This document shows, piece after piece, positions 1 to 28,531 of a stretch of 28,531 nt of DNA. Numbering within the stretch: position 1 is the stretch's first letter; every line of letters starts with the position of its first letter. A model generated the notes under the pieces. It made no database searches and was not told the origin of the DNA. It saw only the letters and a program-made list of their open reading frames with translations. A program made the position numbers and the translations under genes. Source of the DNA: a virus. Location: positions 1-28,531 of IMG/VR virus record IMGVR_UViG_3300010883_000302; one strand, given 5' to 3'.

Positions 1-90
1 GAACGACTCATGAACAAGTTCATCAAGAACGTGGAGAAGGGTGTATGGGAGACCGACAGGCAGCCACAGACGCTTTCCAGCGCATCGTAA
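1..90 (+). CDS. 3' end of a plus-strand gene cut by the window edge
   Basis: An open frame runs from the first base to a TAA stop at 88-90 and encodes 29 residues ending ETDRQPQTLSSAS. The visible part includes the basic stretch MNKFIKNVEKGVW. Its last 46 bases overlap the next plus-strand gene, whose ribosome-binding site (GGAGAAGG) lies inside this frame; such overlaps are normal in compact phage genomes. Too little is present to name a family, and a chance open frame cannot be excluded. Confidence 0.35.
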   Translation, partial: ERLMNKFIKNVEKGVWETDRQPQTLSSAS

Positions 91-398
91 AGGGCTGCGT
101 GGCTCTTCGACTGAACCGACCCTCCATGAGGCTCTCAGAGCTTCTGGAGGACGTTAGGACCATCGACCTGTACCTGACCGGGAAGGCCAACAACCGCAAC
201 CACGACGAAGCGGCTGCGGAGGATTGCCTGATCGGTGGTGAGTGGATGGTCTACCTGTCTGATGGGGGCTACACCCGCCTCGTCATCGACCCTGTCCACG
301 AGGAGCAGTCCTTGCGCCTCACAGGCGGCAGCGGCTCTTCGACCTGGGAGGGGTGTCTGGGGCGTTACCGAGAGATCGGCGGGCGCTTCATCGTCTAA
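45..398 (+). CDS. Hypothetical protein, 117 aa
   Basis: I do not recognise this protein. The ATG at 45 follows a GGAGAAGG ribosome-binding site at close spacing, and no later ATG has a comparable site, so this start is preferred. The N-terminal half looks helical (residues about 5-45, with LSELLEDVRTIDLYL). The C-terminal half looks beta-rich and contains GGEWMVYLSDGGYTRLVID and a Gly/Ser loop (GGSGSS). There is no signal peptide or membrane segment. It converges with the minus-strand nuclease gene: the TAA stop (396-398) and the opposing TAG stop (395-397) share bases, so the two genes overlap by four bases with no room for a terminator. It may belong to a plus-strand unit that begins outside the window. 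Confidence 0.6.
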   Translation: MGDRQAATDAFQRIVKGCVALRLNRPSMRLSELLEDVRTIDLYLTGKANNRNHDEAAAEDCLIGGEWMVYLSDGGYTRLVIDPVHEEQSLRLTGGSGSSTWEGCLGRYREIGGRFIV

Positions 399-742
399 TA
401 GGGCTCCGCCTTGCCTTCGTTCATCAGCACATCGCTGAGGTTCTCACCGTTGTCGAGCCATATCTCAACGATGTAACGCCCGAACTTGCCTGCCTTCGAG
501 GTTGAGATCGAGAACTTGAAGCCCGATGGGAACCGCTGGGTCAACTCTGCTTTCAGGTCAAGACCCGCCTTCTTCTCCGCAGGGGTGACGCCTCTCCTCA
601 AGGCGGTCTCTGGAGCGTCGATACGAGCCAAGCGGTAGTGTCCCCTGACAAGGACGCTCTGGCCGAGGTCCACAATCAACTCAACGGTGTCTCCGTCGAG
701 CCACCGTACCACCTCTGCACTGTACCTATTCGATTCGTACAT
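395..742 (-). CDS. Thermonuclease-like (SNase-fold) nuclease, 115 aa
   Basis: This is a compact staphylococcal-nuclease-like protein. By analogy with the family it would be a calcium-dependent phosphodiesterase cutting DNA or RNA. Key motifs are in order: LDGDTVEL (residues 15-22), YRLARIDAPE (36-45), GKFGRYIVEI (85-94) and the C-terminal LSDVLMNEGKA. By eye, D18, R37, D42, E45 and R89 match the catalytic and metal-binding residues D21, R35, D40, E43 and R87 of staphylococcal nuclease. The ATG at 742 is chosen because it follows GATTGGAGG, whereas the longer frame to 952 has no site and would overlap the divergent gene at 802. There is no signal peptide, so it should act inside the host cell. 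Only 59 bases separate it from the divergent plus-strand gene, so both promoters must lie there or further away. Confidence 0.85.
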   Translation of the reverse strand: MYESNRYSAEVVRWLDGDTVELIVDLGQSVLVRGHYRLARIDAPETALRRGVTPAEKKAGLDLKAELTQRFPSGFKFSISTSKAGKFGRYIVEIWLDNGENLSDVLMNEGKAEPY

Positions 743-801
743 CGAGCCTCCAATCACCTGTCCATAGACAACATAGGTAGACCACCGGAAAGGATTCCTT
801 G

Positions 802-1065
802 ATGCACCCCTGCACCCATTGCCAAGGATTTGGCTACGTTCAGGTCTACTGGACCGTGGTGTTCCGGGTGTACTGCGACTGCGAGGCAGGCTCCAAAAGA
901 ATCCAAGATGTGCGGGGGGCCTTAGAGGAAGTTGGGATTGACCCTGACTCACCTGAGTTCCGATGGATCAGGAAAGCGGATGTCCCTAACCCTTATCAAA
1001 GGGATGCCGCCAAGAGCCAAGAGCCCTCTTGCGCTGACGCGGTTTCAGACGACGAAGAAACGTGA
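802..1065 (+). CDS. Small cysteine-rich (zinc-finger-like) protein, 87 aa
   Basis: The ATG at 802 follows GGAAAGGA; an in-frame TTG immediately before it is less likely to be the start. The N-terminus holds C-x2-C-x-G-x-G (CTHCQGFGY, residues 4-12) and, about 15 residues later, CDCEAG. The first motif resembles one half of a DnaJ-type CxxCxGxG zinc repeat, so a small zinc-binding fold is likely. The C-terminal half is acidic and without a recognised domain. The last 80 bases overlap the 3' end of the convergent deformylase gene. The protein could be a small regulatory or chaperone-like zinc protein, but the role is unknown. Confidence 0.55.
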   Translation: MHPCTHCQGFGYVQVYWTVVFRVYCDCEAGSKRIQDVRGALEEVGIDPDSPEFRWIRKADVPNPYQRDAAKSQEPSCADAVSDDEET

Positions 1066-1480
1066 TGCCGTCCAGGTGGTCAAGCTCGTGTTGAAGACAG
1101 ACGGCCCCAAGGCCGTCGAGACGCTCCACGCACAGTTCACCTTGCTCGTCGAGGTACTCAACATCCACGAAGTAATGCCGAGTCACAGGAACCATAAGAC
1201 CAGGGAATGACAGGCAACCCTCACTGAACAGGATCTTACGCTTGGACCGATTCACGATGACGGGGTTGATGAGGGCGGTCAGGCTCTCGCCAGGGTAGAA
1301 CTGGACCAGACACACTCGCATGTCGAGCCCGACTTGATTGGCGGCCAGGCCGATGCCTTGGTCACGATCTGCCACCGCCCTCATCTGTTTGATGAGTTCC
1401 AGTATCTCTGAAGTGACTTTGGCGACCTCTACACAACGCTTCATCAAGCGTTCGTCCGGCCAGTAGACCAGGCGCATCAT
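986..1480 (-). CDS. def: Peptide deformylase, 164 aa
   Basis: This enzyme removes the formyl group from the N-terminal methionine of new proteins. All three family motifs are present: motif 1 GIGLAANQVG (residues 42-51), motif 2 EGCLSFPG (87-94) and motif 3 QHELDHLDG (130-138). The expected metal ligands are C89, H131 and H135, with E132 as catalytic base and Q49 also conserved. The length is normal for a compact deformylase. The start is taken at the ATG at 1480, six bases after the AGGGG of the ribosome-binding site; a TTG two codons upstream is less likely. The upstream gene's TAG stop runs into this AGGGG, which suggests translational coupling. Phage-encoded deformylases are known, notably in marine phages. 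Here the gene sits at the tail of the virion gene block. Confidence 0.95.
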   Translation of the reverse strand: MMRLVYWPDERLMKRCVEVAKVTSEILELIKQMRAVADRDQGIGLAANQVGLDMRVCLVQFYPGESLTALINPVIVNRSKRKILFSEGCLSFPGLMVPVTRHYFVDVEYLDEQGELCVERLDGLGAVCLQHELDHLDGITFLRRLKPRQRKRALGSWRHPFDKG

Positions 1481-1489
1481 CAACAACCC

Positions 1490-1849
1490 CTATTTTATGA
1501 ATCTCGCGGTCATACCAGCCGCTGCACCCGCTCCGCCACTGCCCAACTCATAGACATCCGAGATGTCCTCCACGAGGACGGTGAACCCAGAGTCCGGGTC
1601 CGTACCCTGCATCAAGGCGTAGATGCGAGAACCCAGGTTGTAGCCCGCGTCGATGAGGTAGGTGTAGGAGTAACGACCCACGTCGTCTTCCACAGTGCTC
1701 ATCACAGTCCCCGCGTCAACCAGGTCAACACGCTCGCCATCCTCATCGAACGTGAAGACTTCGATGGTGGCATCTTCTACCGCCACCCGTTCGTTCAAGG
1801 CATCCAAGAAGAGAACATGGAAGGTTACTTTTTCGCCCGCTGAGGCCAC
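1490..1849 (-). CDS. Beta-rich hypothetical protein, 119 aa, probably virion-associated
   Basis: The start is GTG at 1849, placed after GAGGAG. The sequence reads as one beta-sandwich-like domain: VTFHVLFLDALNERVAVED near the N-terminus, VGRYSYTYLIDAG in the middle and a flexible Gly/Ala tail (GSGGAGAAAG) before the end MTARFIK. The pattern of a modifier domain with a 'Y-x-Y-x-Y' strand resembles Ig-like or carbohydrate-regulatory folds in phage structural proteins, but I cannot name a family. It sits between a neck-like protein and peptide deformylase and is coupled to the latter. The leader carries two alternative hairpins (1866-1904). Confidence 0.75.
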   Translation of the reverse strand: MASAGEKVTFHVLFLDALNERVAVEDATIEVFTFDEDGERVDLVDAGTVMSTVEDDVGRYSYTYLIDAGYNLGSRIYALMQGTDPDSGFTVLVEDISDVYELGSGGAGAAAGMTARFIK

Positions 1850-1865
1850 TGCACACTCCTCGTCG

Positions 1866-1904
1866 GCGGGGAAGGTTGGTCTCCCCGCTCACAAAAGAGG
1901 GGAG
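1866..1904 (-). promoter_or_regulatory. Pair of mutually exclusive hairpins in the leader of the 119-aa gene
   Basis: On the minus-strand RNA, CTCCCC (1904-1899) can pair with GGGGAG (1886-1881). Alternatively the overlapping GCGGGGA (1888-1882) can pair with TCCCCGC (1872-1866). The middle arm is shared, so only one stem forms at a time. The second stem ends shortly before the ribosome-binding site GAGGAG. There is no T-run, so neither is a standard terminator. The arrangement resembles an attenuator or translation switch, but function is inference. Confidence 0.4.
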
Positions 1905-1956
1905 GATAGCCAAACAACTCAGACAGCTACTTCTTGCCCTTGCCGTCCAACCGGGC

Positions 1957-2853
1957 TTAGAGGAAGTTCCTGGGTCCCAGGACACCACGTCCCACATGAG
2001 GACCGAAGGCAGACCGGATCCCGATTCCGTACTTGGGCTGCTTCAAGCCCCGCATGATCTTGACCGTCCTGGACTTGGCTTCAGTGGCTATGTTGAACTG
2101 ACTCTCCGAACTGGTCTTGAGCATCTCGTACTTGCTCGACTTCTCCAGAGTCAGGCTCACACCTCCAATGGAGTAATCGAACTCATCCGCTGTCCAGTTG
2201 GCCATAAGGGCAAAGCAGGCGTGGCCGAGAGCTGACCAGAGCACGGCGGTTCTCCAAACGGGCTTGTACTTGACGAGCCTTCCTACCGTGTTCAACTCCT
2301 CGGTCTCGGGCGGGAACATGTTCCACCAATCAAGTGCTCTCTCGATGTACTCAAGCAGCTCAGCATCCTCCCAAATCTGACCGAAAACACGACTGTATTG
2401 GCCTATGGACCCTTCGTGCTCGGGCGGCCTGAAGTGGTAGAACTTGTCCGGGTTCTGGTCACGGAGGAGTAGCCGGAGCTTGTTGATCATCGACTGCTCG
2501 GAGTCTGAGTAGAGCGAGGCTTCCAGTGCGGACGACTCCACCACCGCGAACTCTTGAACGACCTGCTGGTCTGGACTTCCAGAGAACTCCTTGAACGTCC
2601 ATCGGATTCGGTATGCGCCGGGTGTGGCTGCGGGCGGCACCAGTAGCGCCGCGTAATACTCCCCGACTGACGGGTTCACAGGAACCCGCTCCGCCGAACC
2701 GATGAGGACTTCCTCTTCAGGGGGTCCAGGATCCACAAAGAAAATCCCATAGGAGATGCTCGCGGCGTTGGCAGCGTTCCCCGACGAGTTCGTCAAGAAC
2801 ATGTCCAAGTCTCCGCGACTAAGCTCGGTTCCGGGACTCCATGCAACAGCCAT
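1957..2853 (-). CDS. Virion structural protein, possibly neck/head-tail connector-like, 298 aa
   Basis: The ATG at 2853 follows AGGAGGTAGAT. Residues about 1-105 are beta-rich and look like a small Ig-like or carbohydrate-binding-like module (GTELSRGDLDMFLTNSSGN, then PSVGEYYAALLVPPAATPG and YRIRWTFKEFSG). The rest is helical: INKLRLLLRDQNPDKFYHFRP leads to a Trp-rich helical segment (RALDWWNMFPPETEEL), a hydrophobic segment (WSALGHACFALMANW) and a C-terminal SYSIGG-like turn with basic helices. The pattern of a helical body that begins with LRLLLRDQNPDKF recalls minor head or neck proteins of large phages, but this is a recollection rather than a search. The C-terminus is Gly/Arg-rich (GPHVGRGVLGPRNFL). 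Confidence 0.7.
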   Translation of the reverse strand: MAVAWSPGTELSRGDLDMFLTNSSGNAANAASISYGIFFVDPGPPEEEVLIGSAERVPVNPSVGEYYAALLVPPAATPGAYRIRWTFKEFSGSPDQQVVQEFAVVESSALEASLYSDSEQSMINKLRLLLRDQNPDKFYHFRPPEHEGSIGQYSRVFGQIWEDAELLEYIERALDWWNMFPPETEELNTVGRLVKYKPVWRTAVLWSALGHACFALMANWTADEFDYSIGGVSLTLEKSSKYEMLKTSSESQFNIATEAKSRTVKIMRGLKQPKYGIGIRSAFGPHVGRGVLGPRNFL

Positions 2854-2862
2854 ATCTACCTC

Positions 2863-3372
2863 CTACATCTTGATTCTGACATCGTTGCTCAGAATCATCT
2901 TGTCAGTGGCAACAGCAAAGCCGACCCGAAGCTCAACGTAGCCCTCGTCTTCGCTGGGTTCATGTGTCACCTCACCTGCCACATGAGAAAGGTAAACGTC
3001 TTCACCGGGTACGAGGTCCTCGTCGTCAGTGACCTGGGGGTCGGAAATCTGGGTTCCGCGCATGGTCATGACAATGGGCCGACCGCCTCCAGAGATGTCG
3101 TTGACCTGGAACCCAAGAAACATGCTCGGGTTCCCAGTCTCAACATGTGAGGAGCAGAGTTGGAACTCCTCATCGTCCTCTGCGTTGAGCACCAGGCAGA
3201 CGGCCTTTCCTGCACCGAAGACAACAGGGATCTCAATCTCCTCGCCAGTCTCAGGGTCAATGACCGTCTGGGTCTCCGGGATGGTGGTTGAAGAGGTGAT
3301 GAGGGTTCCTGTCCCACCGCCAACTCCGCCGCCGCCAGCACCGCCCCCACCTGGTGGTCTCGCAATCGGCAT
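2863..3372 (-). CDS. Capsid-fibre/decoration-like protein with DUF2190-like C-terminus, 169 aa
   Basis: The N-terminus is a glycine-rich linker (PPGGGGAGGGGVGGGTG), then a low-complexity Thr/Ile stretch. The C-terminal part contains VPGEDVYLSHVAGEVTHEP and ELRVGFAVATDKMIL, the pattern seen in DUF2190-like and other phage proteins that decorate heads or fibres: a value set on the virion, then V-G-x-A-x-x-x-x-K-I-x-L. The ATG overlaps the preceding stop as TGATG, with GGAG ten bases upstream, so it is coupled to the membrane protein gene. No membrane segment is present. It is probably a virion surface protein, though a tail-fibre accessory is equally possible. Confidence 0.7.
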   Translation of the reverse strand: MPIARPPGGGGAGGGGVGGGTGTLITSSTTIPETQTVIDPETGEEIEIPVVFGAGKAVCLVLNAEDDEEFQLCSSHVETGNPSMFLGFQVNDISGGGRPIVMTMRGTQISDPQVTDDEDLVPGEDVYLSHVAGEVTHEPSEDEGYVELRVGFAVATDKMILSNDVRIKM

Positions 3373-3680
3373 CAGTCTGACTCCAACCGTTGGATGGCTG
3401 TGTCAGCGGCGTAGCACCAAGCGGCTGAGCCTAAGGCTGCGCCGAGAACCTGGACTCCAGAGGCCCAGGTCAATGCCGGGGTCCCAGAGGCGGCCCAGAA
3501 CCCGAACCAGGTCAACCAGCCACAGTGGAAACCCATGCAGTACGAGCACGACAAGAGCCTGTCGAAGAACGAGGTCTTCTCCCCGCTCTCCATGAACGCC
3601 TTGCTGTAAAGGAAGGGCAGCTTGTTCACCAAACCGAAGCACAGGCCATAGGCTATGAACGCCCCATACAGAATATACAT
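3372..3680 (-). CDS. DUF1360-like small membrane protein, 102 aa
   Basis: Three hydrophobic segments are visible: YILYGAFIAYGLCFGLV near the N-terminus, a central one around CMGFHCGWLTWFGFWAA, and a C-terminal one around VQVLGAALGSAAWCYAA. The short motif LLSCSYCMGFHCGW matches the C-x-x-C-x-G-F-x-x-G/A-x pattern of DUF1360-type membrane proteins, whose function is unknown. The ATG at 3680 follows AGGAG at good spacing. A longer frame starting at 3716 would add a very basic leader without a site and overlap the upstream gene. It would insert in the host inner membrane, in a block otherwise made of virion genes. A lysis or superinfection role is possible but unsupported. Confidence 0.75.
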   Translation of the reverse strand: MYILYGAFIAYGLCFGLVNKLPFLYSKAFMESGEKTSFFDRLLSCSYCMGFHCGWLTWFGFWAASGTPALTWASGVQVLGAALGSAAWCYAADTAIQRLESD

Positions 3681-3690
3681 TGGTCTTCTC

Positions 3691-4005
3691 CTACTTCTTC
3701 CGCGCCTTACGGACACGGGGGGTGGACTTGGAGCGTGGAGGCTTATCTGAGCCGCCTGGGAGGATGCGACAGCACGAGGTGCTCGCTGACTTCTGGAAGA
3801 TTTCCACGGTGTCAGGAACCCCGTCTTCGTCGCAGTCCCAGCCGATGTCCAGCTTGATGTCGTCGAGTGCCGTCAGGAGCAGATTCCGCTCCGCCGTGAT
3901 CTCTTCACTCCGCATCCCTGAGTTGAACCTCTTCTCCACATCGAGAAGACGCCGGATGGCTGTTCCCAGGCCCATCTTTATGAACTTGTCAGACGTTTTT
4001 GCCAC
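3691..4005 (-). CDS. Hypothetical protein with a D-x-D-x-D-G calcium-loop-like motif, 104 aa
   Basis: The start is GTG at 4005, after GGAGG with five bases of spacing. Residues 1-50 are helical and charged (FIKMGLGTAIRRLLDVEKRF, then AERNLLLTALDDIKLDI). They are followed by DCDEDGVPDTVEIF, which has the D-x-D-x-D-G-x-x-D spacing of calcium-binding loops in thrombospondin type-3 or EF-hand-like repeats, here as a single copy. The C-terminus is very basic (PPRSKSTPRVRKARKK). I do not recognise a family. It is the first gene downstream of the fibre terminator and probably starts a new transcript or is reached by read-through. Confidence 0.6.
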   Translation of the reverse strand: MAKTSDKFIKMGLGTAIRRLLDVEKRFNSGMRSEEITAERNLLLTALDDIKLDIGWDCDEDGVPDTVEIFQKSASTSCCRILPGGSDKPPRSKSTPRVRKARKK

Positions 4006-4089
4006 TGTCGCCTCCGCTACTCCAAGGGGAAGATACCCGCTTCACCTGATGCTGTTGATAGGACCGCCAACGGAGGACAACTAATCAGA

Positions 4090-4129
4090 ACAAGAAAAGC
4101 CCCCCGAACCACAAGGGTCCGAGGGGCTT
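4090..4129 (-). terminator. Rho-independent terminator after the fibre gene
   Basis: On the minus strand, AAGCCCCTCGGACC (4129-4116) pairs with GGTTCGGGGGGCTT (4110-4097) as a 14-bp stem with two G-U wobbles and a 5-base loop, followed by TTTTCTT. The plus-strand version would have two A-C mismatches, so the signal is directed at minus-strand transcription. It ends the fibre transcript. Confidence 0.85.
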
Positions 4130-4160
4130 GAAAAGGTTTGAGACCTGCCCTCAAGGGGAA

Positions 4161-4186
4161 GGTTGTAGGACCGAAGCCCTACAACC
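4161..4186 (-). other. UUCG-tetraloop hairpin just after the fibre stop codon
   Basis: On the minus-strand RNA, GGTTGTAGGGC and GTCCTACAACC form an 11-bp stem (one G-U) closed by the very stable C(UUCG)G tetraloop. It begins about 11 bases after the fibre stop codon and has no T-run. It lies just before the terminator at 4090-4129. A 3' mRNA-stabilising or processing element is the likely role; that is inference. Confidence 0.6.
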
Positions 4187-4197
4187 ACCCAGAGAGA

Positions 4198-7100
4198 TTA
4201 GTTCTTGTAGTGGAAGTGCTTGCCCACGGTAATCTGAACCATGACAGCCACGGTAACCATGTTGCCGTTTCCGTCATCCTCCTGCCACGGGAAGGAAGCC
4301 ATGACCTGTCCGATCTCGGTGACGTAAGCCCCCGGAACCTGAGAGATCACATCATAGGTAGTCAGCGAACCAGGCTCGGAAGCCGAGATGTACATCTTGG
4401 TTCCTCGACCGGGCATGTTTGGCGCGGCGTAATCCCCACCAACAGACGCAAGGTCCACCCGAATCAATGCCTGCATTCCGTCCATCACCATAGCCTGAGG
4501 AGTAGAAGACATCGGTCCTTGGACCTCTGACTCCACCACCTGGCCGTAGCACATGTAGTCTGACTGGGCGTCCATCCTGTACACCTTGCCATCTTCCCGC
4601 AGTGAACTGAGTTCACCTTGACCAATGTTCTCACCAGCTTCAAGATCCGGTGATCCATCGAGGATGTTGATACTCCGCATCATCGGAGTATGCGGACCCA
4701 TCGGGTTCAGGATGATGTGCTCAGACGAGATCGACAGACCGAACTCCACCTGAGTGAGAGTAGACACCGAGTCCTGGTCGCCTCCACTATTGTCATGGAA
4801 GTAACGCAGTTCCAACTCAGCACCAGTCTGGGGTGTCGTGTACTCTTCCTGGAAGGTAACCTCAGCCTCGTAGAACTTGGTGATGTCCGACTCACCCAGG
4901 GTGAAGAGACGGTCGCCGTCCTTCGCTCTGAGCTTCCCATTCTCATAGAAGATGGAGCCTTCAACCACAGCGGCGTCAGAACCGTCATGCTCGTCCACTG
5001 CCAGCCGAAGCAGACCAGTGTTCACTCGCTGAGCGAAAGCATCCCGGAAACGAGTACCAGCCTCACCGAGATCCTGAGCGTCAGCGTTCAGCACCTTGAT
5101 GGTACGGTTGGTCCACATGTCAGCAGCGTCAACAGGGATCTGAAGGGCATCAGAGCCTTGGCTCAAGTCGTCCCGACCGTGGATGACTCCACCGTGGTTG
5201 ATCTCGAAGCCACCTTCAGCGTGAATCCCAGCGGATAGGCTGAGCTGTCCAGCATCAAGCGTTGCGTGAACGTCTCCGTCCCCGTAGCCTTCGCCTGCCT
5301 CGAAACCAGCGTAGAACTGGCTGCGTGCCCGAACCTCGCCAGCAACATCAAGGATACCGACTGCACGACCACCTGCCGAAATCACCATGTCACCATGAAG
5401 ATCAGCCTGTGGCGAGAAGTCGTCTGTTCCGGCAGCGTAGTTGCCATTGCAGTTCAAGTGGTATCGGTTATTCGGTGAATCCCAACCCCACTTGAACTCG
5501 TCACTTACCTCCAGGAAAGGCAGCTTACTCGTACCGCCAGCGTAGATAGCCTTCTCAGAGCGGATTCCGAGCGACGCGGTGTCCAAGGCCCACTGAGGCA
5601 CTGCGCCGATGTTGGCATCGCCAGCAACGTCCAGCTTACCACTGCTCTGGTCCTTGGCTTCCAAGGACACATCGCCCTTGATAGCCACCGTAGGCGTGTA
5701 GAGGTTTAGACCCGAGTCGAAACCAGCCTCCGCCTTGAAGACGTTCTGCATCCCCATTGCTGTGAGAGAGGAATCGCCCCCCACCGTGAGGGACCCAGTG
5801 ATGCCTGCATTACCATACAGGCCCGTGTTCCCATTCACATCCAGGTCACCAGTCAACTCAGTCTTACCCTTGTAGGTAAAGAGATTGTCGCCTGTGGTGT
5901 TACCCTGGTAGTTAGGTTGAGCAATCTTGAGGGCGTAGTCACCAGAGAAGGTGCCATCTCCATTGTCGATGGCCTCACTATCCCAGGCGACCATTGCACT
6001 CGCCTGAGCTTTGAGGCCCCTGCGTGTTCCGATGTGCCCATCAGCGTCGATACTATTGGAAGACTGCCCCTCACCGATTTTGACGGAGGCGTCACCATTG
6101 ACGACTTCTTGGTTGGTAGGAGAACCGAGTGTTGCGTCACCAGAGACACCCATGTCGCCAGTGAAGGTCGAGGCTCCGTCCATCCGCAAGGTAGCGGTGT
6201 TGTATCCCAGTCCACCGTCGTAGGTGCTCAGTACCTCGAAGTTGGTGGCGTCGGTGGTGGCGTTGTAACTTCCGCGAAGGCTTCCGTTAGCTTGAACAGC
6301 GTCCCAAGATCGGATCATCCCACCCGCAGTAATCTGACGAGCAGACACAATGTCCGCGCCAGTTTCCGTCAGGAGGTCACCCACGGCTGAGAAGTCACCA
6401 ACTCGGAGAGCAGCCTCATCGGCAGCATCCTTGTCAATGGTCACCTTGGCCTGGAACCCAGCCGCAAGTTCAGCAGTTAGCGACCCTTGGAGAAGGGTGT
6501 CTCCAGCCGTGACAGTCAGACCAGCGTCAAGCTGAGCCAAACCAGCCGTGACAGTCAGACCATCCTTAGCCGAGATGAGCTTCTGAGCCTCAAGAAAGCC
6601 TTGAAGCACTGTATCACCAGCAACGTCCAGAAAACCGCTCGCGTCCCGAGAGGCAGCAACCACAAGGTTACCCTTGAGGCTCACCTCAGGCGTGTAGTCC
6701 TGGTTCTGCTCGTCGTAGTTCTTCGAGGCAGTAAGAACATACTCGTCAGCCACCGTCTCAGTAAACTGGGCATCTCCATCAGCTTCGAGGCTGGCAGAGA
6801 AGTCAGCACTCTCGGCGACCATGTCACCCATCGCGATGATCTTTCCAGCACGCAGTTGCGTGTAGGAAGCGTTCGCCGCTTCCATGTTGCCAACCGAGTC
6901 CTCAGAGACATCACTTGCGATGATGTACTCCACCTCAGCAGCCGCCAGCCCGTCACCACCGATGACGTTGAACCAAGCACCACGCCACTTATCAGAAGCA
7001 CCGTCGTTGTACTTGGACTTCAGACCGGAGTCTTTGATGTCCGAAGCGTCCTGGTCCTTGAGCAACTCAATGATGCTGTCAGAAAGCTGGACCGTCTCGG

Positions 7101-10577: not shown

Positions 10578-11321
10578 CTACGGTCCATTCTGAAGGGAAA
10601 TGACCATTGAAAACGCGACGTTGTTACCAGCACCGCTAATCAGAACTTCGGACATATTGGCATCGTAAAACGCCAGAGCGTCGGCGGCAGGCACCACAGC
10701 CATTGGATGGCCGACCCCGAAAGAGACGTGCAGCGGGTTCGCAGCGTCCAGGTTCACGAGGATGAACCCTGAGCTGTGAAGAGGTAGGTGAAAGTGCATC
10801 GCCTGCTCGGGAGCTTTCTCGCCCGCAGTAGACGCTGTATCTGGAGCGGTGCCCGCAAGCGTAAGCAAGGGCCGAGCTACTGTGAGGCTCGACTGAGGCA
10901 TGATGATGTTGATGGGGCCGTCATCGACCCAGCCGTCCGCTGCGTCCAGGAACCTCTGCACGCGCATGAAGAGAACATCGTTATCTTCAGGAACCTCTTG
11001 AAGCAGTGCGTCCGTCGGGTCGAAGAAATCCATCGGGTCCCACACGAAACGAGTCACCCGTCGATCACGACCAGACCCATGAGGGATGTCCACCGCGTGA
11101 TGCTTCCTGGTCCGAAGGGAACCACTGGTGAAGTACCCCCCAGAGGTCACGTCGAACATCTCGCTTCCACCTGCGCCACCGACACCATTGGTGCTGCCAT
11201 AGGAATCATTCAGCGTAGATGCTGCGGTGATCCGATACTGGGAAGTCCCCTTCTCAAGGGGAATGGTTGCGTCGATATGGTTCGGGAGTCGCTCCCGGAT
11301 ACTGGCAATAATGCCTCTCAT
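10578..11321 (-). CDS. Virion-type structural protein, 247 aa
   Basis: The ATG overlaps the stop of the FmdB-like gene (ATGA) and has AGGAGGTACAGC in front of it, so translation is coupled. The protein starts with a basic helix (MRGIIASIRERLPNHIDATI). It continues with a Gly/Ser-rich stretch (YGSTNGVGGAGGSEMFDV) and a long beta-type body that includes RRVTRFVWDPMDFFDPTD, MHFHLPLHSSGFILVNLDA and FGVGHPMAVVPAADALAFYD. No enzyme motif, signal peptide or membrane segment is visible. I do not recognise the family. Its place at the end of the tail/Ig-protein run suggests a baseplate, tail or fibre-attachment role. Confidence 0.7.
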   Translation of the reverse strand: MRGIIASIRERLPNHIDATIPLEKGTSQYRITAASTLNDSYGSTNGVGGAGGSEMFDVTSGGYFTSGSLRTRKHHAVDIPHGSGRDRRVTRFVWDPMDFFDPTDALLQEVPEDNDVLFMRVQRFLDAADGWVDDGPINIIMPQSSLTVARPLLTLAGTAPDTASTAGEKAPEQAMHFHLPLHSSGFILVNLDAANPLHVSFGVGHPMAVVPAADALAFYDANMSEVLISGAGNNVAFSMVISLQNGP

Positions 11322-11713
11322 GCTGTACCTCCTGCGGACTTCTCCTTACGGACGTGCGCTTCATAACTCGATGTGTCTTTGCCCTTGCTCCCGGCGAGCT
11401 TCTGAGCCTCTGCCCAGGAACCTGTCTGCTCTCCCTCTACATTGGGTGCCAAGGTGGCCACGGGGGCGTCGTGCTTCATCGCTGTCGTCCTCTGATCGAG
11501 GTGACGGTTCTTGGCAGCCATCTGGCTCTTGATGCGGTTGTTCTTGCCCGCCCAGCCGTCGCCCTTGAGTACGAAGCTCGTCATGCTTATCTGCTTAGCC
11601 GTCTGCGTCGAGCTACACTCGGGGCAGCTCTGTGGCTCATCGTAGTTCGAGATAGCCAGCCTCTTCTCAAAGGCTGAGCTACACGCCCCACACTGGTACT
11701 CATATACAGGCAT
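11318..11713 (-). CDS. FmdB-type zinc-ribbon protein, 131 aa
   Basis: The N-terminus MPVYEYQCGAC...CPEC is the classic FmdB-type single zinc ribbon, with C8, C11, C30 and C33 as the likely ligands. After it come FVLKGDGWAGKNNRIKSQM and a basic segment (KNRHLDQRTTAMKHDAP), then LAPNVEGEQTGSWAEAQKLA and an alanine- and lysine-rich end. The tail resembles phage versions of this family that carry a 'SWAEAQKLA..KGKDTSSYE' segment. FmdB proteins are usually called putative regulators, but the phage members are uncharacterised. The start abuts the SWIM gene stop (TAAATG), with GGAGTGGAG as the ribosome-binding site inside it. The stop overlaps the next start (ATGA). Confidence 0.85.
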   Translation of the reverse strand: MPVYEYQCGACSSAFEKRLAISNYDEPQSCPECSSTQTAKQISMTSFVLKGDGWAGKNNRIKSQMAAKNRHLDQRTTAMKHDAPVATLAPNVEGEQTGSWAEAQKLAGSKGKDTSSYEAHVRKEKSAGGTA

Positions 11714-20308: not shown

Positions 20309-21181
20309 TTAGCGAGTGATCGTCAGTCGAGCCAAACCACGGGGGTTGTAGGCACCGATTCCGACGTTCTCGAACACCGAGAACCCAATGGTCCGCGCCT
20401 TCGGGTCGTCAGCGGAAAGCACGGTCAGCTCAGTACGGACAGGAATCCGACCGAACATCTCGGGCTCGCAGCAGACGTACACCGTGCCGACCGGAACCAG
20501 ACGGGAAACGATGATCTGGGCACCCCAGATCGTTCCCATCAGGCCCGTCTTCAGCAGAGCGGCCTGGCTTTCGATGTCAAGGATGTCGCGACCGAACTTA
20601 CGCAGATCAGCGTAGTCACGGGCATTCATGAACACGCGGGCTACCCGCAGGTCATGACGCTCGATCAGACTGAAAGCGTCAGCAAGGACAGCGCCAGTGA
20701 TCGGAGCAACAACGGGAATGTCCGCGTTGGTTCCGCCAGCGATGCTATCAAAGCCATCGGTTGCGATGCTGTCGAGAACCGCGAAGACACGCTCGTCTTC
20801 AGCAGCCTGAATCTGAGCGCGGGCCAGATCCTGGGCACGTTCGATAAGATCGAAACGACGCTCCTTGATCTGGGTCAGCGGGATCTCAGGGTTCGAGGCA
20901 ATCTCGAACAGCGGGAAGATCACACGACGGGGTTTGGTGATAGCCAGAATGTTCTGACCTTCCTCACCAACCACATACGCGGTCACGTCCGGGTCCTTGT
21001 CGTAAATAGGAAGAGCACCGTCAGGGAGCTGCTCGACCAAGAAGGTCTTGCGGCCCACCGCAGTATAGTCGCGCCGGGTACGGAGCGGCTGAGTCATGGA
21101 AGCAGCGAGCTTCGCACGACCCTGCGGGGTCTTGATGTACTCGGAAATGATTCGTTGCTTTACAGCATTATTGACAGCCAT
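20309..21181 (-). CDS. Major capsid protein, HK97 fold, 290 aa
   Basis: This is the shell protein of the phage head. The layout fits the HK97 fold: a helical N-terminal arm (residues 1-45), an E-loop-like segment (about 46-85), the spine helix with its lead-in (LTQIKERRFDLIERAQDLAR, 102-121, continuing AQIQAAEDERVFAVLDSI), and the A-domain. The motif SLIERHDLRVARVFMNARDY (171-190), then ADLRKFGRDI, and GTIWGAQIIVSRLVPVG (216-232) are typical of capsid proteins of large phages. The C-terminus closes with VFENVGIGAYNPRGLARLTI. At 290 residues it is on the short side. The ATG follows GGGAGGTGCATC. It is the last gene of a two-gene unit after the putative decoration protein and has its own terminator, as expected for the most highly expressed gene. 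Confidence 0.9.
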   Translation of the reverse strand: MAVNNAVKQRIISEYIKTPQGRAKLAASMTQPLRTRRDYTAVGRKTFLVEQLPDGALPIYDKDPDVTAYVVGEEGQNILAITKPRRVIFPLFEIASNPEIPLTQIKERRFDLIERAQDLARAQIQAAEDERVFAVLDSIATDGFDSIAGGTNADIPVVAPITGAVLADAFSLIERHDLRVARVFMNARDYADLRKFGRDILDIESQAALLKTGLMGTIWGAQIIVSRLVPVGTVYVCCEPEMFGRIPVRTELTVLSADDPKARTIGFSVFENVGIGAYNPRGLARLTITR

Positions 21182-21993: not shown

Positions 21994-23289
<1,296 letters not shown>

Positions 23290-23303: not shown

Positions 23304-24716
23304 TTATCGGCGTGTCGCCGGAATCCGTGAAATGAGTGTGCCGAGGCGGGTTAGCGTCCGGGACTCATCCTTGTTGAGTTTCCTCCCAAGGATGTCTTCA
23401 GACGCCCTCAAGAACTTATTGCTGGTTTCATATTGTCCAGTGGACCCTACTCGAAGGGCCACACGGTAAAGCTCGACTGGGATCTCAATCCCAAAAGAAT
23501 AGTTGAACGCAGCGACCCTGTTTACCAGGTCTGCTGGGCTCGAAGAGGTCGTGAGCAAAGCTGCCAAACCCGCACGGTAACCCGTGATGAGGCCCTCTTT
23601 GATGACAGTGTCGTTGGGCTCAGCAGAGGACTCTTCAGGAGAAGGGTCCTGCTGGTCACCGCCAGACAGGTCATCGAAAATCTGTTGTTTAGCCCGCTGG
23701 AGAATCTGCTTCACAACCTTCTGTTGGAGGCCATCGAGCGGGCTCTCTTCCTCTTGGGCAGGTTGTTCTTCTTCGCCACCACCGCTGTCTTCTTCTTCTT
23801 CGTCCCAGCCTGCCAGGTTCTCAGAGGCAGCCATCGCCCGATTCCCCTGCACCCAATCCTTGGGAGGGCTGGACAAGATGTCCCGGATATTCTGGGCCGT
23901 TTTTGGGGAGACCTCTGCGGGCACAATGATGTTCCGCATCACCGCGCCAGCGAAAGCGGGTGTGGCAACCCAGGACGCCTCAATGAAGGTCACTCCACCT
24001 GTGGGGTCTACGGTGTGGTGTCCACACAGTTCAGCTACGCGGTGCTTGTTGTTACCATCATCGAAAAAGGTGTTCCCCTTCTCGTACTTGATGTGCTTGC
24101 ACATCTCCGTCTCATCAGCCGCAACGTGACCGCACTTCGTACAGAGCGTGAAGTCCACGGAGCAACCCATCGACATCGTGCCCATAGATCCGGCCTCAAT
24201 AGCGGCTACCAGGTCTTTGTGCTTCCGGTCTGTCGCAATCAGGATGTCAACGTAGACACTCTCACCAATGTCCCGAGCGACCGCGTCAATGATGCGGCCC
24301 TTGGAAAGGTCTTCGACCTGGACATGCTCTACGAAGTTGTGGGCTCCAACGAAGGTCCGGTAGGACTTCATCAGCACGTCCCTCGACCAGGCATCCATGT
24401 TGTTGTTGATGTACTTGTCCCCACACGCATCAATACGGAAATCGGTGTAGTTGCGGACAACCTTCTGCCCGTCCTCCTCCACTGACCCTGTCTTGACTCC
24501 CGGCTGATCGAGCACATCCACGGAACACACGATGGTGGCATGGGTGAGAAGATACTGGTCTGGTTTGAACTGTGAGCCAAGAATCCCAGTGGCTTGTTCG
24601 CTCAAACTGGCAGTGACTTCGCCCTTATGCACGGCAGCGGTACGGACCTTGTTCCAACCAGGACCATCAAGATGGGGATGGATGACTTGAGCGTATGCGT
24701 ACTTCATGAAAGCCAT
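23304..24716 (-). CDS. Prohead maturation protease with acidic C-terminal half, 470 aa
   Basis: The N-terminal about 270 residues match the herpesvirus-like prohead protease fold found in large phages. Visible landmarks are FVGAHNFVEHVQVEDLSKG (residues 122-140, with H126 and H131 as candidate catalytic His), then GESVYVDILIATDRKHKDL. Next is GSMGTMSMGCSVD (176-188), where S177, S182 or S186 would be the nucleophile. Right after this comes a zinc-ribbon-like insert, C192-x2-C195 and C206-x-H208. GGVTFIEASWVATPAFAGAV closes the protease. An acidic low-complexity linker (WDEEEEDSGGGEEEQPAQEE) and a helical C-terminal domain follow. The enzyme would cut core and capsid arms during head maturation. 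Start: TAATG overlap with the upstream zinc-ribbon gene. Confidence 0.85.
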   Translation of the reverse strand: MAFMKYAYAQVIHPHLDGPGWNKVRTAAVHKGEVTASLSEQATGILGSQFKPDQYLLTHATIVCSVDVLDQPGVKTGSVEEDGQKVVRNYTDFRIDACGDKYINNNMDAWSRDVLMKSYRTFVGAHNFVEHVQVEDLSKGRIIDAVARDIGESVYVDILIATDRKHKDLVAAIEAGSMGTMSMGCSVDFTLCTKCGHVAADETEMCKHIKYEKGNTFFDDGNNKHRVAELCGHHTVDPTGGVTFIEASWVATPAFAGAVMRNIIVPAEVSPKTAQNIRDILSSPPKDWVQGNRAMAASENLAGWDEEEEDSGGGEEEQPAQEEESPLDGLQQKVVKQILQRAKQQIFDDLSGGDQQDPSPEESSAEPNDTVIKEGLITGYRAGLAALLTTSSSPADLVNRVAAFNYSFGIEIPVELYRVALRVGSTGQYETSNKFLRASEDILGRKLNKDESRTLTRLGTLISRIPATRR

Positions 24717-25246
24717 TAGCCCGCCCCCTCATGTAGATGGATGTCCAAGTCCTTGATTAGGAACATGCAGTTAGGACAGCCCCAGAGCCTCTCACTGGCA
24801 CCCTCTCGGCGCTTGTAGATGGCCTTCTTGAGGCCAGGCTCCTTGCACTTGGGACAACCAAGAGCACCAGAGTCACACTCACCACGAGTGGCGTGGTACT
24901 GACGGTCCTTCTCTTTCCAGTAGAGGGCGACCTTGCTGGGGTCTGCCGCGAGCTTCTCCCCCGGACCACCTGGAACAGAAACCTGCCCCACGCCGCCTGG
25001 AACAGAATCATGCTCCAACTCAGGAAGGACGACCTTTCCGTCCTTCCAGCGATGCAACTCCTCTGCTGGATACCGCATCGTCCCATCAATGTGTTGAACG
25101 TCCACCATGCCGATGGCCGGATACACGGCAACCACGGTCCCAGCGGTGTCTGAACCTTCCCCCTTAGGGAAAGCTCCATCACCGACCTGGAACTCGGAAG
25201 CCCGTTCCTGCCAATCTGTATAGGCACTGGCGTTACGCTCAGACAC
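24716..25246 (-). CDS. Zinc-ribbon hypothetical protein, 176 aa
   Basis: The start is GTG at 25246 after GGAGGTCCTATC. Residues 20-66 form a small beta-barrel-like unit (GTVVAVYPAIGMVDVQHIDG, TMRYPAEELHRW), as in SH3- or KOW-like modules. A Pro/Gly linker with an internal repeat (SVPGGVGQVSVPGG) follows. The C-terminal part is a four-cysteine zinc ribbon: C131-x2-C134 and C157-x2-C160 (GCPKCKEPGLKKAIYKRREG, then LWGCPNCMFLIKDLDI). No family is recognised with certainty, but the same barrel-plus-ribbon arrangement occurs next to prohead proteases in some large phages, as I recall. It is coupled to the protease gene (TAATG overlap), so a head-assembly role is likely. Confidence 0.75.
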   Translation of the reverse strand: MSERNASAYTDWQERASEFQVGDGAFPKGEGSDTAGTVVAVYPAIGMVDVQHIDGTMRYPAEELHRWKDGKVVLPELEHDSVPGGVGQVSVPGGPGEKLAADPSKVALYWKEKDRQYHATRGECDSGALGCPKCKEPGLKKAIYKRREGASERLWGCPNCMFLIKDLDIHLHEGAG

Positions 25247-25260
25247 GATAGGACCTCCGA

Positions 25261-25887
25261 TCAGGAACTTAGGCTGTAACCATGATTGAAAGCCGTCTTG
25301 CTGGCCTCTTCATCTTCGTCAGCGTCATCTTCATCGTCATCGTCATCGTCGCCAGCCACGCGGAGGATCTGCTTGGCGAGGGCGACCAACTTGGCCTTCT
25401 TGCCAGCTTCGTCATCATCGTCAGCCTCTTCCTCATCATCGGCCTCTTCCTCATCATCGGAGGACTTGGCGGACTTCTTGGAAGCCTCTTCCTCATCATC
25501 GGCCTCTTCCTCATCGTCGGCCTCTTCCTCATCGTCCGCAGTCTTCAGCAACTCGGCGAGAAGGTTAGCGAGCTTCGCAGCAGCACCGAGCTGGCCGCCG
25601 TCAACGACATCACCCAACTCGTGAAGGTACTTCTGCTCCTTCATCGCATCGTCCATGTAAGCCTCATCGGGCTCTGTCTGGGTCACGACCGTGTCATCGG
25701 ACAGCTTGTTGTCGCGTTCGAGACCAGCGTTCTTCTCCACGAAATCCGCCAGGAGATCGCAACGATACGCGAAGTCAACGGCGACCTTCTTGGGGATGCC
25801 AAGGGTCGAGTGGTTCGCTTCGAACAGTTGAGCGAGACGGTCGAGATCAGTGGTGATGGCCTTCGCGGCCTGCTTGGAAAGGGACAT
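25261..25887 (-). CDS. Acidic repeat protein of the head-assembly block, 208 aa
   Basis: Residues 1-100 are an ordinary helical domain (SKQAAKAITTDLDRLAQLFE, VAVDFAYRCDLLADFVEKNA, QLGAAAKLANLLAELLKTAD). The remainder is Asp/Glu-rich with ADDEEE units and SKK/GKK modules, broken by one amphipathic helix (KLVALAKQILRVAG), and ends EEASKTAFNHGYSLSS. The acidic module is shared residue for residue with the 431-aa core-like protein on the other side of the protease gene. This points to a second internal core component or a protease substrate. The ATG follows AGGAGGATCCCAAC. It sits between the HAD-domain gene and the zinc-ribbon gene; an exposed acidic DNA-mimic is an alternative. Confidence 0.7.
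   Translation of the reverse strand: MSLSKQAAKAITTDLDRLAQLFEANHSTLGIPKKVAVDFAYRCDLLADFVEKNAGLERDNKLSDDTVVTQTEPDEAYMDDAMKEQKYLHELGDVVDGGQLGAAAKLANLLAELLKTADDEEEADDEEEADDEEEASKKSAKSSDDEEEADDEEEADDDDEAGKKAKLVALAKQILRVAGDDDDDDEDDADEDEEASKTAFNHGYSLSS
25300..25545 (-). repeat. Low-complexity acidic repeat region, second copy
   Basis: The region encodes three blocks of DDEEEA-type repeats plus an Asp run. The block at about 25479-25541 encodes the same 21 residues as about 22325-22390, although several codons differ synonymously. GAT/GAC and GCC/GCG changes account for the differences. Confidence 0.85.
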
Positions 25888-26032: not shown

Positions 26033-28531
26033 TCAGGCCGCAGAAAGAGGACTCACCAATGGAGGGTCAGTCTTCTTTGAGAGGTCGGCGGGGTCCCCGG
26101 AATCAACGAACGCCTGTGCATTGGCGGTCGCTGGCCCTCCAGGAAACTGACCAGAATCAGTTTCCGTCATGTCCTCGTAATCCTGCCTCCGTTGCTCAGT
26201 GATCTCCGCCTCGGCTGCCTTTTGGCCCCCTTCCTCATAAGCCGCTGTAATCGCATCGACATCAAACTTGGGGTCGGACTCAATCTTGTCCCAAGAGTCT
26301 GAGGGGTCTGAAGAACCTTCTTCCTTCCGGTCAGCCTGCTCCTTCTTGAGTGCGGGGACAATAGTGGCCTGGTCCAGCCCATAGTCGATTGCCAACTGCC
26401 TCATGGCCGCTGCCAACTCCGGTCGAGAAGGGATGGGGGGGTCTGCATCAGGGTCCCCTTGGTCGGCCAAGGCAGCGGATTCTGCAATGTTCCCAGCCGT
26501 GGAACCTGAGCCCCCCAACGCATTCACCAAATCGTCCCCCATCATCCTGTTCATGGCCTTGTGTACCAACATTCGGTTCTCGGCATGGTGCCACTCTTCC
26601 GCAGGCTTACTAAGAAAGTCCACACCGCCAGGAACCTTGGCCATGTGCTTGATGAGTGCCACTGCTTGGGCTGGAGGAGAGCCTCCGTGAGGCTCCTTGT
26701 CCCCATTTACAACAGATGCAATCGTGAGAGCCTGACTTACCCCCTTCAACTTGGCCTGGAATGGAGTCTGCTTCTTCTCATCTGGTTGCGCCTGGTGGGC
26801 TTGGAGACCCAACTCGTCAACACTCTCGTAAATCTTCTTCCGGGCCTTCTCGTCCAGGCCCTTGATGCTCTCGAAAACAGAGGTCGTCCACTTAGTTACA
26901 TCCTCCGGGGTGCCGGAGGCGTTGTCTGGGTCGAACAAGGAAGCCTCATCTTGGCCCCCCAGGAAATCGTCCAGCTCTTTGGTTATCCCCATCAACCCCT
27001 GCTTCTTCTCGTCGAAGGTCGCCCTTGCCTCTTCCTTCTTCTCGGCCTCGGCATCAGCGGCCTCTTCCTTCTTCACCTCTTCCTTCTTCTCGGCTATGTC
27101 CTTTCGGTACTCCCGAGCCATGTCCTGCTGAGCTTCCTCCGAAAGGTTGCCGTCCGAGTCTCGTTGGTCGAAATACTGCTTGTTGAGCTTCTCAACAAGC
27201 TCATCGGTGTACCTCTCCTCATCCGACTTGTCCTCCGGGAGCTTGACGACCCTGGGGTCAAAAGGTCGGTGGGCCTGACCAGAACCTGGGTCGCCTTCAG
27301 TATCTGCGGACTCTTCGTCTGCGGGCTCTTCGCCCTTAGGCTTAGCCGCATCCTGACGCTTCAGTAGCTCGTCCGCGAGCTGTTCGTAGGTCTCATCATC
27401 ACCTTCAGTGATGGCATCCCCGAGCTTCTCCCTTAGGTCATCGTCGGTCATCCCTCTTAGCTCTTCGCCCGTCACCTTCGGCCCTTCACTGTCCCCCTTG
27501 CCTTTGGGGTCGTCCTCCTTGTCCCCCTTGTCTCCCTTGTCTTTGGGGTCGCTCCCTTCTTCTTTCTTCTTCTTCTCTTCCCACTCCTCGAAGAGCTTGT
27601 GGAGAAGCGCCTGGGCCTTGCCGCCCTTGGCCCCATTCTGGAGACTGGGAACTTCCACATCACGGCCAGACTCTGGGTTCTTGACCTTCTCGTTCTTGAC
27701 CTCGTGCAGGAACTTCTTCCACCAGCCGTCGGCGTGGGACTTACCACCCGACCCCTCGTCTTCTTCCTCACCCTCGGCAACAGCGGGCTCACCTGCCAAG
27801 AGACTCAGCACAGCGGTCTTGCGGGTCTTAGCGAAGGCGTGGTGTCGATTGACTACGCTTGAGACCATCCACCCCACGCGCTTGAAGTTCCGGGAGAGGT
27901 CCTTGTCCCCCTCCTGACCCAGAGCCTCAACGTCCTCGTCGTCTTTGAGGTCCACCCTCTCCTTACGGAGGTCATTGCGTGGCGGCTTCTTCTTCGGGAG
28001 CCTTCGAACGAGACCCTGGATGGCCTCGTCTTCATTCTCGGCGTGGGACTTGGTAGCGAGACGAAGGACACGCTGGATGCTTGCGAGCTTCTCGATGTCC
28101 TCTTCTACACAATCAACGCTTCTCGAAACCTCAGAGATGGGGTGAGCAACGAACTCCAGTCCCCATCTCTCAACCATCGACTGGTACTCAGACATGTGTT
28201 GATCCTCCCACACATGCACAGACGTGAAGTTGTGTTTGCTGTGCAGCTTCGCAATGACCTTCTTCTTGTAGGTCGATGTACCTCCACCGGAGTTCAGATA
28301 GACCTCATCGAAGTTGAGGCCCGCAGACTTCAAGAGGGCCGGGACAATCCACCGGAACTTACCGTCGATGCGACCCGTGCAGCAGATAGCGAGGACATCC
28401 GAGTTCCCTATACTCCTCTTGGCCGCCGAAACGACTGAGCCGTTCCACCACGAGCCATCGGGTTTCAGAGGGACGCACGGAGGACTCAGAGACTGCTGGT
28501 TACTCCACCAGTCTCTCTGGCTCCACCAGGA
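26033..28531 (-). CDS. HAD (Swiss Army Knife RNA repair-like) domain protein with a very long charged tail, 5' truncated by window edge, 832 aa visible
   Basis: The frame stays open to the last base, so the start lies outside the window; the TTG at 28333 is internal. In-window residues 1-134 resemble the HAD-type Swiss Army Knife RNA repair-like family: SLSPPCVPLKPDGSWWN (14-30), VLAICCTGRID (46-56, motif II Thr), GLNFDEVYLNSG (71-82), TYKKKVIAKL (87-96, motif III Lys) and VHVWEDQHMSEY (105-116, motif IV acids). HAD motif I would be just upstream of the window. The following about 500 residues are highly charged and low-complexity (KKEEVKKEEAADAEAEKKEE). The last about 230 residues look helical and Ala-rich (PPAQAVALIKHMAKVPGG). 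It heads the head-assembly block. Family function in phages is unknown. Confidence 0.75.
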   Translation of the reverse strand, partial: SWWSQRDWWSNQQSLSPPCVPLKPDGSWWNGSVVSAAKRSIGNSDVLAICCTGRIDGKFRWIVPALLKSAGLNFDEVYLNSGGGTSTYKKKVIAKLHSKHNFTSVHVWEDQHMSEYQSMVERWGLEFVAHPISEVSRSVDCVEEDIEKLASIQRVLRLATKSHAENEDEAIQGLVRRLPKKKPPRNDLRKERVDLKDDEDVEALGQEGDKDLSRNFKRVGWMVSSVVNRHHAFAKTRKTAVLSLLAGEPAVAEGEEEDEGSGGKSHADGWWKKFLHEVKNEKVKNPESGRDVEVPSLQNGAKGGKAQALLHKLFEEWEEKKKKEEGSDPKDKGDKGDKEDDPKGKGDSEGPKVTGEELRGMTDDDLREKLGDAITEGDDETYEQLADELLKRQDAAKPKGEEPADEESADTEGDPGSGQAHRPFDPRVVKLPEDKSDEERYTDELVEKLNKQYFDQRDSDGNLSEEAQQDMAREYRKDIAEKKEEVKKEEAADAEAEKKEEARATFDEKKQGLMGITKELDDFLGGQDEASLFDPDNASGTPEDVTKWTTSVFESIKGLDEKARKKIYESVDELGLQAHQAQPDEKKQTPFQAKLKGVSQALTIASVVNGDKEPHGGSPPAQAVALIKHMAKVPGGVDFLSKPAEEWHHAENRMLVHKAMNRMMGDDLVNALGGSGSTAGNIAESAALADQGDPDADPPIPSRPELAAAMRQLAIDYGLDQATIVPALKKEQADRKEEGSSDPSDSWDKIESDPKFDVDAITAAYEEGGQKAAEAEITEQRRQDYEDMTETDSGQFPGGPATANAQAFVDSGDPADLSKKTDPPLVSPLSAA

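Follow-up and report, generated by a model that had tools for sequence, protein, structure and literature searches.

A jumbo-phage head-operon polyprotein joining 2H, CCA-adding-type nucleotidyltransferase and HAD domains to a conserved tail: a candidate virion-delivered tRNA 3'-end repair set

Introduction

Polyvalent proteins are multi-enzyme phage polypeptides that are encoded with virion genes and predicted to be packaged and injected into the host (Iyer 2017, PMC5512222). The enzymes of RNA repair are likewise familiar from jumbo phages, where 2H, HAD "Swiss-army-knife" and CCA-adding enzymes have all been listed (Iyer 2021, PMC7824862); in that account the HAD domain tends to be stand-alone and the CCA enzyme is listed separately. 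Polyvalent or ejection proteins are thus a known kind, with the concept set out in the first of these papers and the repertoire of repair enzymes in the second. Comparable in role are T4 Alt and the ejection proteins of SPN3US and phiKZ, non-structural proteins that are assembled with the head in phages that also have a prohead protease.

Here we describe a large head-operon protein in which three such enzymes are part of a single polypeptide. The window analyzed is the entire IMG/VR record IMGVR_UViG_3300010883_000302, 28,531 bp in length. An earlier note on this DNA, made from the letters alone, had reported a HAD-type RNA-repair-like domain at the N-terminus of a protein with a charged tail, encoded next to head genes, and had suggested an enzyme packaged in the head and delivered with the DNA. 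We confirmed the observation as real and found it to be understated.

Results

The frame at positions 26033-28531 (minus strand) is open to the window edge, as had been stated, with 832 codons without a stop. These are the 3' codons of a polyprotein gene of 1550 codons, the rest of which was recovered by scanning viral contigs with the visible part of the HAD domain. The contig found in this way, IMGVR_UViG_3300031623_000461 (11.5 kb, hereafter L002), shares 8.4 kb with the window at 99.8%; the alignment has a single mismatch and opens three gaps, and the contig reaches 2.2 kb past the window's edge. On L002 the complete gene is an uninterrupted ORF of 1550 aa (nt 89-4741) with a GTG start and in-frame stops upstream, and no frame break lies just outside the window. 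The first 718 codons, which encode an N-terminal domain, the 2H and nucleotidyltransferase (NTase) domains and HAD motif I, are outside the window and correspond to L002:89-2242.

On the full protein, the HAD domain extends from residue 702 to residue 850, with residues 719-850 encoded in the window at 28136-28531 (minus strand). Its identity is certain. The HAD_SAK_1 profile (PF10307) matches at E 4.5e-14 to 4.7e-14, with 53.1 bits against a cut-off of 25.6, and all four catalytic motifs are present. Motif I, which the earlier note proposed to look for beyond position 28531, was found on L002 just past the window edge as DFDGT (residues 706-710, with D706 and D708) in the context LFDFDGTLF; it is joined by T770 (motif II), K807 (motif III) and WED with the acidic D828 (motif IV), and these motifs are conserved in 88-100% of 62 sequences. 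The predicted structure matches the T4 Pnkp 3'-phosphatase (5uj0, Z 14.0) and Clostridium Pnkp1 (4xrp, Z 13.8). The "Swiss Army Knife" assignment is therefore upheld by a profile above cut-off, motifs I-IV and a T4 Pnkp-like predicted fold, and the searches did not give a different fold. The domain is indeed joined to a charged tail, but it is not the N-terminal part of the protein, being instead the third enzyme of a much larger polypeptide.

Among 55 non-redundant phage HAD domains, 41 are stand-alone, while eight are fused to a 2H domain, seven to a topoisomerase IB and three to an NTase; some phage HADs have an AAA_33 kinase domain as their partner. The partner of the HAD domain need not be tRNA, since fusions to topoisomerase IB are more frequent than fusions to the NTase. 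NTase-HAD fusions were seen in L002, L061 and L177. We also observed a second, divergent topoisomerase IB family whose gene adjoins a HAD gene (L003:2579-5074 and L004:8480-11491); in the L004/L098 record it is additional to the topoisomerase IB of the head polyprotein.

Residues 297-688, encoded on L002 outside the window, form a nucleotidyltransferase of the PolyA_pol/CCA-adding type, separated from the HAD domain by 14 aa. The PolyA_pol match has an E-value of 9.5e-16 (58.7 bits, cut-off 23), and the motifs GG.VR, DxD and RR[DE]..N are intact (residues 324-328, D338/D340, R434, N439 and R492). By sequence, the PDB matches include both CCA-adding enzymes and poly(A) polymerase; by structure, the prediction comes closest to CCA enzymes (Z 23.2 for 3h38, a CCA-adding enzyme). 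The signature that marks bacterial poly(A) polymerases was absent from all 32 of the NTases in which it was sought. No NCBIfam equivalog cut-off was reached on the NTase, for which the CCA and PcnB models score alike. At locus L130, a CCA-type NTase is split by an intein near the conserved RRE/D..N motif.

A 2H-type domain (residues 145-264, likewise outside the window on L002) ends 33 aa before the NTase. We assign it at the level of family profile and motifs. The fungal tRNA-ligase cyclic phosphodiesterase profile (tRNA_lig_CPD) matches seven of seven members of the 2H family, at best with 7.3e-6, and the domain of the window phage scores 26.1 bits against a cut-off of 23; the two HxT motifs, H176xT178 and H228xT230, are invariant in the family. 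The region was predicted at pLDDT <50 from an input in which the relatives were misaligned, and a profile search of the PDB gave no match. In seven non-redundant proteins a 2H domain is adjacent to the NTase, on either side and 16-33 aa away, and in L103 it is encoded by an abutting gene. Beside its NTase, the window phage has in this place a 2H domain of another subfamily, and hhalign found no relation between the two subfamilies. Because two unalignable subfamilies occupy the same place, this looks like non-orthologous replacement. The protein begins with a strongly conserved domain of about 100 aa (residues 26-128, L002:164-472, outside the window) that has Cys55/Cys58 (C..C) and KH motifs and matched nothing in Pfam. 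It is present in many head operons, either fused or as a separate small gene beside the HAD gene.

The tail had been described as some 700 charged residues. It is charged and close to that length, at about 680 aa (residues 872-1550) with a net charge of -53, but it is not mere low complexity, as it holds two conserved modules. The KPPR module (residues 875-935; 27881-28063, minus strand) has the consensus ATK..SE.EDEA..L.K.SPK.KPPR.DLR..RV. A charged, partly disordered linker follows (residues 936-1301; 26783-27880, minus strand; D+E 26%, K+R 16%) and leads to Ctail, a conserved C-terminal domain predicted by AF2 to be all-helical at a pLDDT of about 85 (residues 1302-1455; 26321-26782, minus strand). 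The weakly conserved C-terminal end takes up residues 1456-1550 plus the stop (26033-26320, minus strand). Models built without any sequence from the window phage still recovered KPPR and Ctail, at E 2.2e-22 and 4.2e-13, respectively; the best scores over 100 shuffles were 2 and 6 bits. The tail model had no fold match in BFVD or the PDB, which is not proof of a new fold.

The genes that follow on the minus strand are those of a head operon. The polyprotein gene is succeeded by one for a conserved acidic-repeat protein (25261-25887), which in L096, L103 and L106 is part of the polyprotein itself, as a C-terminal fusion, and by one for a conserved protein with four Cys in two CxxC pairs (24716-25246). 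The head maturation (prohead) protease comes next (23304-24716; PHROG 18299, E 1.7e-14) and matches that of Tunturi_5 at 40%. It precedes a second acidic, repeat-rich protein (21994-23289), a scaffold or core candidate by its position, and the phage G-like major head protein (20309-21181; PHROG 2522, E 7e-52; 39% to phage G gp27 and 88% to LR745208). The gene does precede those for protease and capsid, as had been reported, with the protease three genes downstream of the polyprotein and, in relatives, the portal upstream of it. Both repeat-rich proteins contain DDEEEA runs, and their lengths differ between the window and L002 (208 and 210 aa for the first, 431 and 429 aa for the second). The few differences between the two contigs over their overlap are gaps in all but one case, and together with the unequal lengths of both proteins this indicates that repeat length varies between near-identical phages. 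A gene for an FmdB-like small regulator lies among the window's structural genes (11321-11713).

To avoid selecting for HAD, we fetched 80 loci by the neighboring gene at 24716-25246, annotated them with iterated profiles and took counts from the 20 non-redundant loci with a portal gene in view. The conserved order is portal, cargo, KPPR/Ctail, acidic protein, Cys protein, protease, acidic protein and capsid. KPPR preceded the protease and capsid genes in every one of these 20 jumbo-phage head operons, and the enzymes in front of it were variable: topoisomerase IB in 17, 2H in 11, NTase in nine and HAD in seven. The arrangement 2H-NTase-Topo-KPPR-Ctail was found in L098, L123, L135 and L155, with NTase-Topo in L092 and L101, NTase-Ndom in L089, NTase-HAD-2H in L061 and HAD-Topo in L018 and L032. 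Pyrophosphatase is also among the variable cargo, the L061 polyprotein, which is syntenic, having an InPase domain (PF18823, E 1.5e-39). In L041 and L159-L161, no enzyme cargo was matched beside the tail modules; upstream, L041 encodes a HAD as an independent gene. In L096, L103 and L041, the C-terminal domain continues as a fusion into the head genes that follow. Since the enzymes vary and the tail is constant, the tail belongs to the head operon; the comparison strongly supports the view of the earlier note that it is a head-associated module and not junk.

In several relatives (L027, L097, L139 and L150), the gene for the prohead protease is split by inteins (Intein_splicing, Hint, LAGLIDADG), with two per gene in L097 and L150. 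The split pattern alone was seen in L095, L143 and L176.

A short motif marks the domain junctions of these proteins. In 47 non-redundant polyproteins, we counted 42 instances of the RVAxRY-like pattern [RKHTQN]VAx[RK][FWY]; local shuffles gave 1.07 +/- 0.92, with a maximum of 4 over 200. Some of the 42 stem from the topoisomerase and KPPR modules, whose edges are conserved. The density of the pattern is 0.63 per 1000 aa in the polyproteins and 0.09 in the other ORFs of the same loci, and the portal, protease and capsid proteins are free of it. Only one of the 42 occurrences is inside a modelled domain, where 17.8 were expected, and the motif is also found at protein ends (L018, L022, L072 and L074). 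It is a candidate cleavage or docking signal. In SPN3US, a related system, the protease cleaves after AXE (PMC10052503), and no known cleavage-site rule ties the RVAxRY motif to the protease of this phage.

Across phages, NTase genes are concentrated near HAD genes, at 4.1 per 100 kb within 3 kb and 0.16 per 100 kb at 3-10 kb. Genome-wide, among 23 relatives, HAD (10) and NTase (15) were found together in six, where about 6.5 would be expected; this co-occurrence does not exceed chance, which speaks against the repair reading, and many of these records may be fragments. RNA ligases of the PF09414 and RtcB families were present in only five and three, respectively, of 18 relatives, two of which are near-identical copies of one phage. 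We therefore dropped a ligase-centered repair pathway as a general explanation. The L061 KPPR-Ctail had no match in the Phages collection, so that no annotated or cultured close relative was found there; virion proteomics for a close relative did not turn up either, and a search for hosts of these phages returned three MAG contigs only.

Discussion

The protein shares with the polyvalent proteins of PMC5512222 its many domains in one polypeptide (N-terminal domain, 2H, NTase, HAD, KPPR and Ctail), its place among the virion genes of a portal-terminase phage and, across the family, the 2H and InPase domains. It differs in having its own tail modules and junction motif; a Pfam search of the window ORF for ART-PolyVal, MPTase, ArdC-N, InPase and other polyvalent hallmarks found none. 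Neither a CCA enzyme nor a topoisomerase turned up in the text of that paper, whose three counts of "HAD" include the verb "had". Relative to the list in PMC7824862, the distinction is that 2H, NTase and HAD are here a single head-operon protein. The HAD domain is predicted to have the fold of the T4 Pnkp 3'-phosphatase, but unlike T4 Pnkp and the bacterial Pnkp/Rnl/Hen1 systems, the protein has no kinase or ligase domain, and CCA addition would take the place of ligation. The likeness to T4 Alt and the SPN3US and phiKZ proteins is one of role, with an RVAxRY-like motif here instead of cleavage after AXE. Bacillus phage G and Tunturi_5 have a related protease and major capsid protein, and phage G a portal match, but their head regions, when fetched, gave no matches to the KPPR, Ctail, NTase or HAD models. 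Tunturi_5 has an ART-PolyVal/2H/GNAT protein instead. This is gp321 (L008:2790-6878), annotated as a MutT/NUDIX hydrolase, which by Pfam contains ART-PolyVal (in three stretches), 2H, GNAT and SprT-like domains and is thus a typical polyvalent protein. In the papers searched we found no account of this combination of enzymes, of the tail modules or of the junction motif, all of which appear to be undescribed; other papers could contain one.

Because the HAD domain is one of three enzymes in a single ORF, its likely function is in tRNA 3'-end repair and not that of a lone phosphatase. The activities are linked in three ways: by the 2H domains next to NTases, by the NTase-HAD fusions with the clustering of NTase genes near HAD genes, and by the fusions of other phage HADs to 2H or AAA_33 kinase domains. 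In our preferred reading, to which we give a probability of about 0.5, a jumbo phage whose capsid is phage G-like encodes here a polyvalent head-operon polyprotein that delivers a ligase-independent tRNA 3'-end (CCA) repair set. After a cut by a metal-independent RNase, the 2H domain would open the resulting 2',3'-cyclic phosphate. The HAD domain, as a Pnkp-like phosphatase, would take off the phosphate that remains, exposing a 3'-OH on which the CCA-adding-type nucleotidyltransferase would restore the CCA end. No ligase or kinase would be needed, as these steps would rebuild the cut 3' end. KPPR and the helical Ctail may form a shared head or core module by which the enzymes would enter the prohead, where the protease may free the domains at the RVAxRY-like junctions. 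The enzymes could then be ejected with the DNA, ready before phage gene expression to undo host attacks on tRNA. All findings are consistent with a packaged enzyme delivered with the DNA, as had been suggested; packaging, cleavage, ejection, activity, the substrate of each enzyme and the order of the pathway are what we infer.

The same domains might be put to other uses. The protein could be a repair enzyme that is merely encoded in the head operon and active late in the infected cell, with the tail as an assembly or solubility module. Phage HAD_SAK genes are mostly stand-alone, CCA enzymes are usually free genes, as in Tunturi_5 and Myrna, and the NTase is outside the head operon in G004, G005 and G007. 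However, the KPPR/Ctail modules and their position between portal and protease are kept while the cargo changes, which is hard to explain without a role in the head, and we regard this possibility as unlikely. A role in DNA is a serious rival for the HAD domain itself, since its fusions to topoisomerase IB, the commonest cargo of the surveyed loci, outnumber those to the NTase. Pnkp-type phosphatases act on DNA too, and the domain may be a DNA 3'-phosphatase that works with topoisomerase IB on the ejected genome, with the NTase and 2H as unrelated cargo. Yet the window ORF has no topoisomerase, only short spacers separate its HAD, NTase and 2H domains, and other phage HADs are fused to 2H or to the AAA_33 kinase domain; as an account of this protein, a kit for DNA ends and topology is decidedly unlikely.

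The 2H domain might alternatively destroy cyclic or 2'-5' nucleotide alarms in the manner of Acb1, with HAD clearing phosphates and the NTase acting separately on tRNA. Such quenching has been suggested for the 2H domains of polyvalent proteins (PMC5512222), and that of Tunturi_5 gp321 has a weak Acb1 match (E 0.002). The 2H domain of the window phage, however, resembles the tRNA-ligase phosphodiesterase family and sits beside a CCA-type NTase, as 2H domains do in six other lineages, so we give this explanation little probability. Very improbable, finally, is the maturation of CCA-less tRNAs encoded by the phage, the reading given for phage RaK2 (PMC3622015), even though relatives carry up to 67 tRNA genes. 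It does not explain the NTase, whose presence is not tied to tRNA number (eight of 15 NTase records have zero or one tRNA gene, and two records with 36 and 40 have no NTase), and in G002, where the NTase is fused in the head operon, CCA is already encoded in 41 of the 44 tRNA genes examined. Nor would tRNA maturation need fusion to a head module.

Returning to virion-delivered tRNA 3'-end repair, antiphage immunity commonly targets tRNA. One defense that such a protein could counter is Cas12a3 (PMC12851939), one of the immune systems that strip or block the tRNA CCA end, and the toxSAS and MenT toxins likewise target the CCA end (PMC11559606, PMC11541572). A broader proposal, that KPPR/Ctail, exchangeable enzymes and the RVAxRY motif make up a modular head cargo of jumbo phages, used here as an injected tRNA repair machine against CCA-end immunity, is tentative, and we put it clearly below even odds. 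A virion-delivered CCA-adding-type enzyme coupled to end-cleaning enzymes is a concrete, testable candidate. With the tail and junction motif as a sequence rule, head cargo could also be recognized in jumbo phages that are uncultured, and the large head-operon proteins that these phages encode would become easier to explain.
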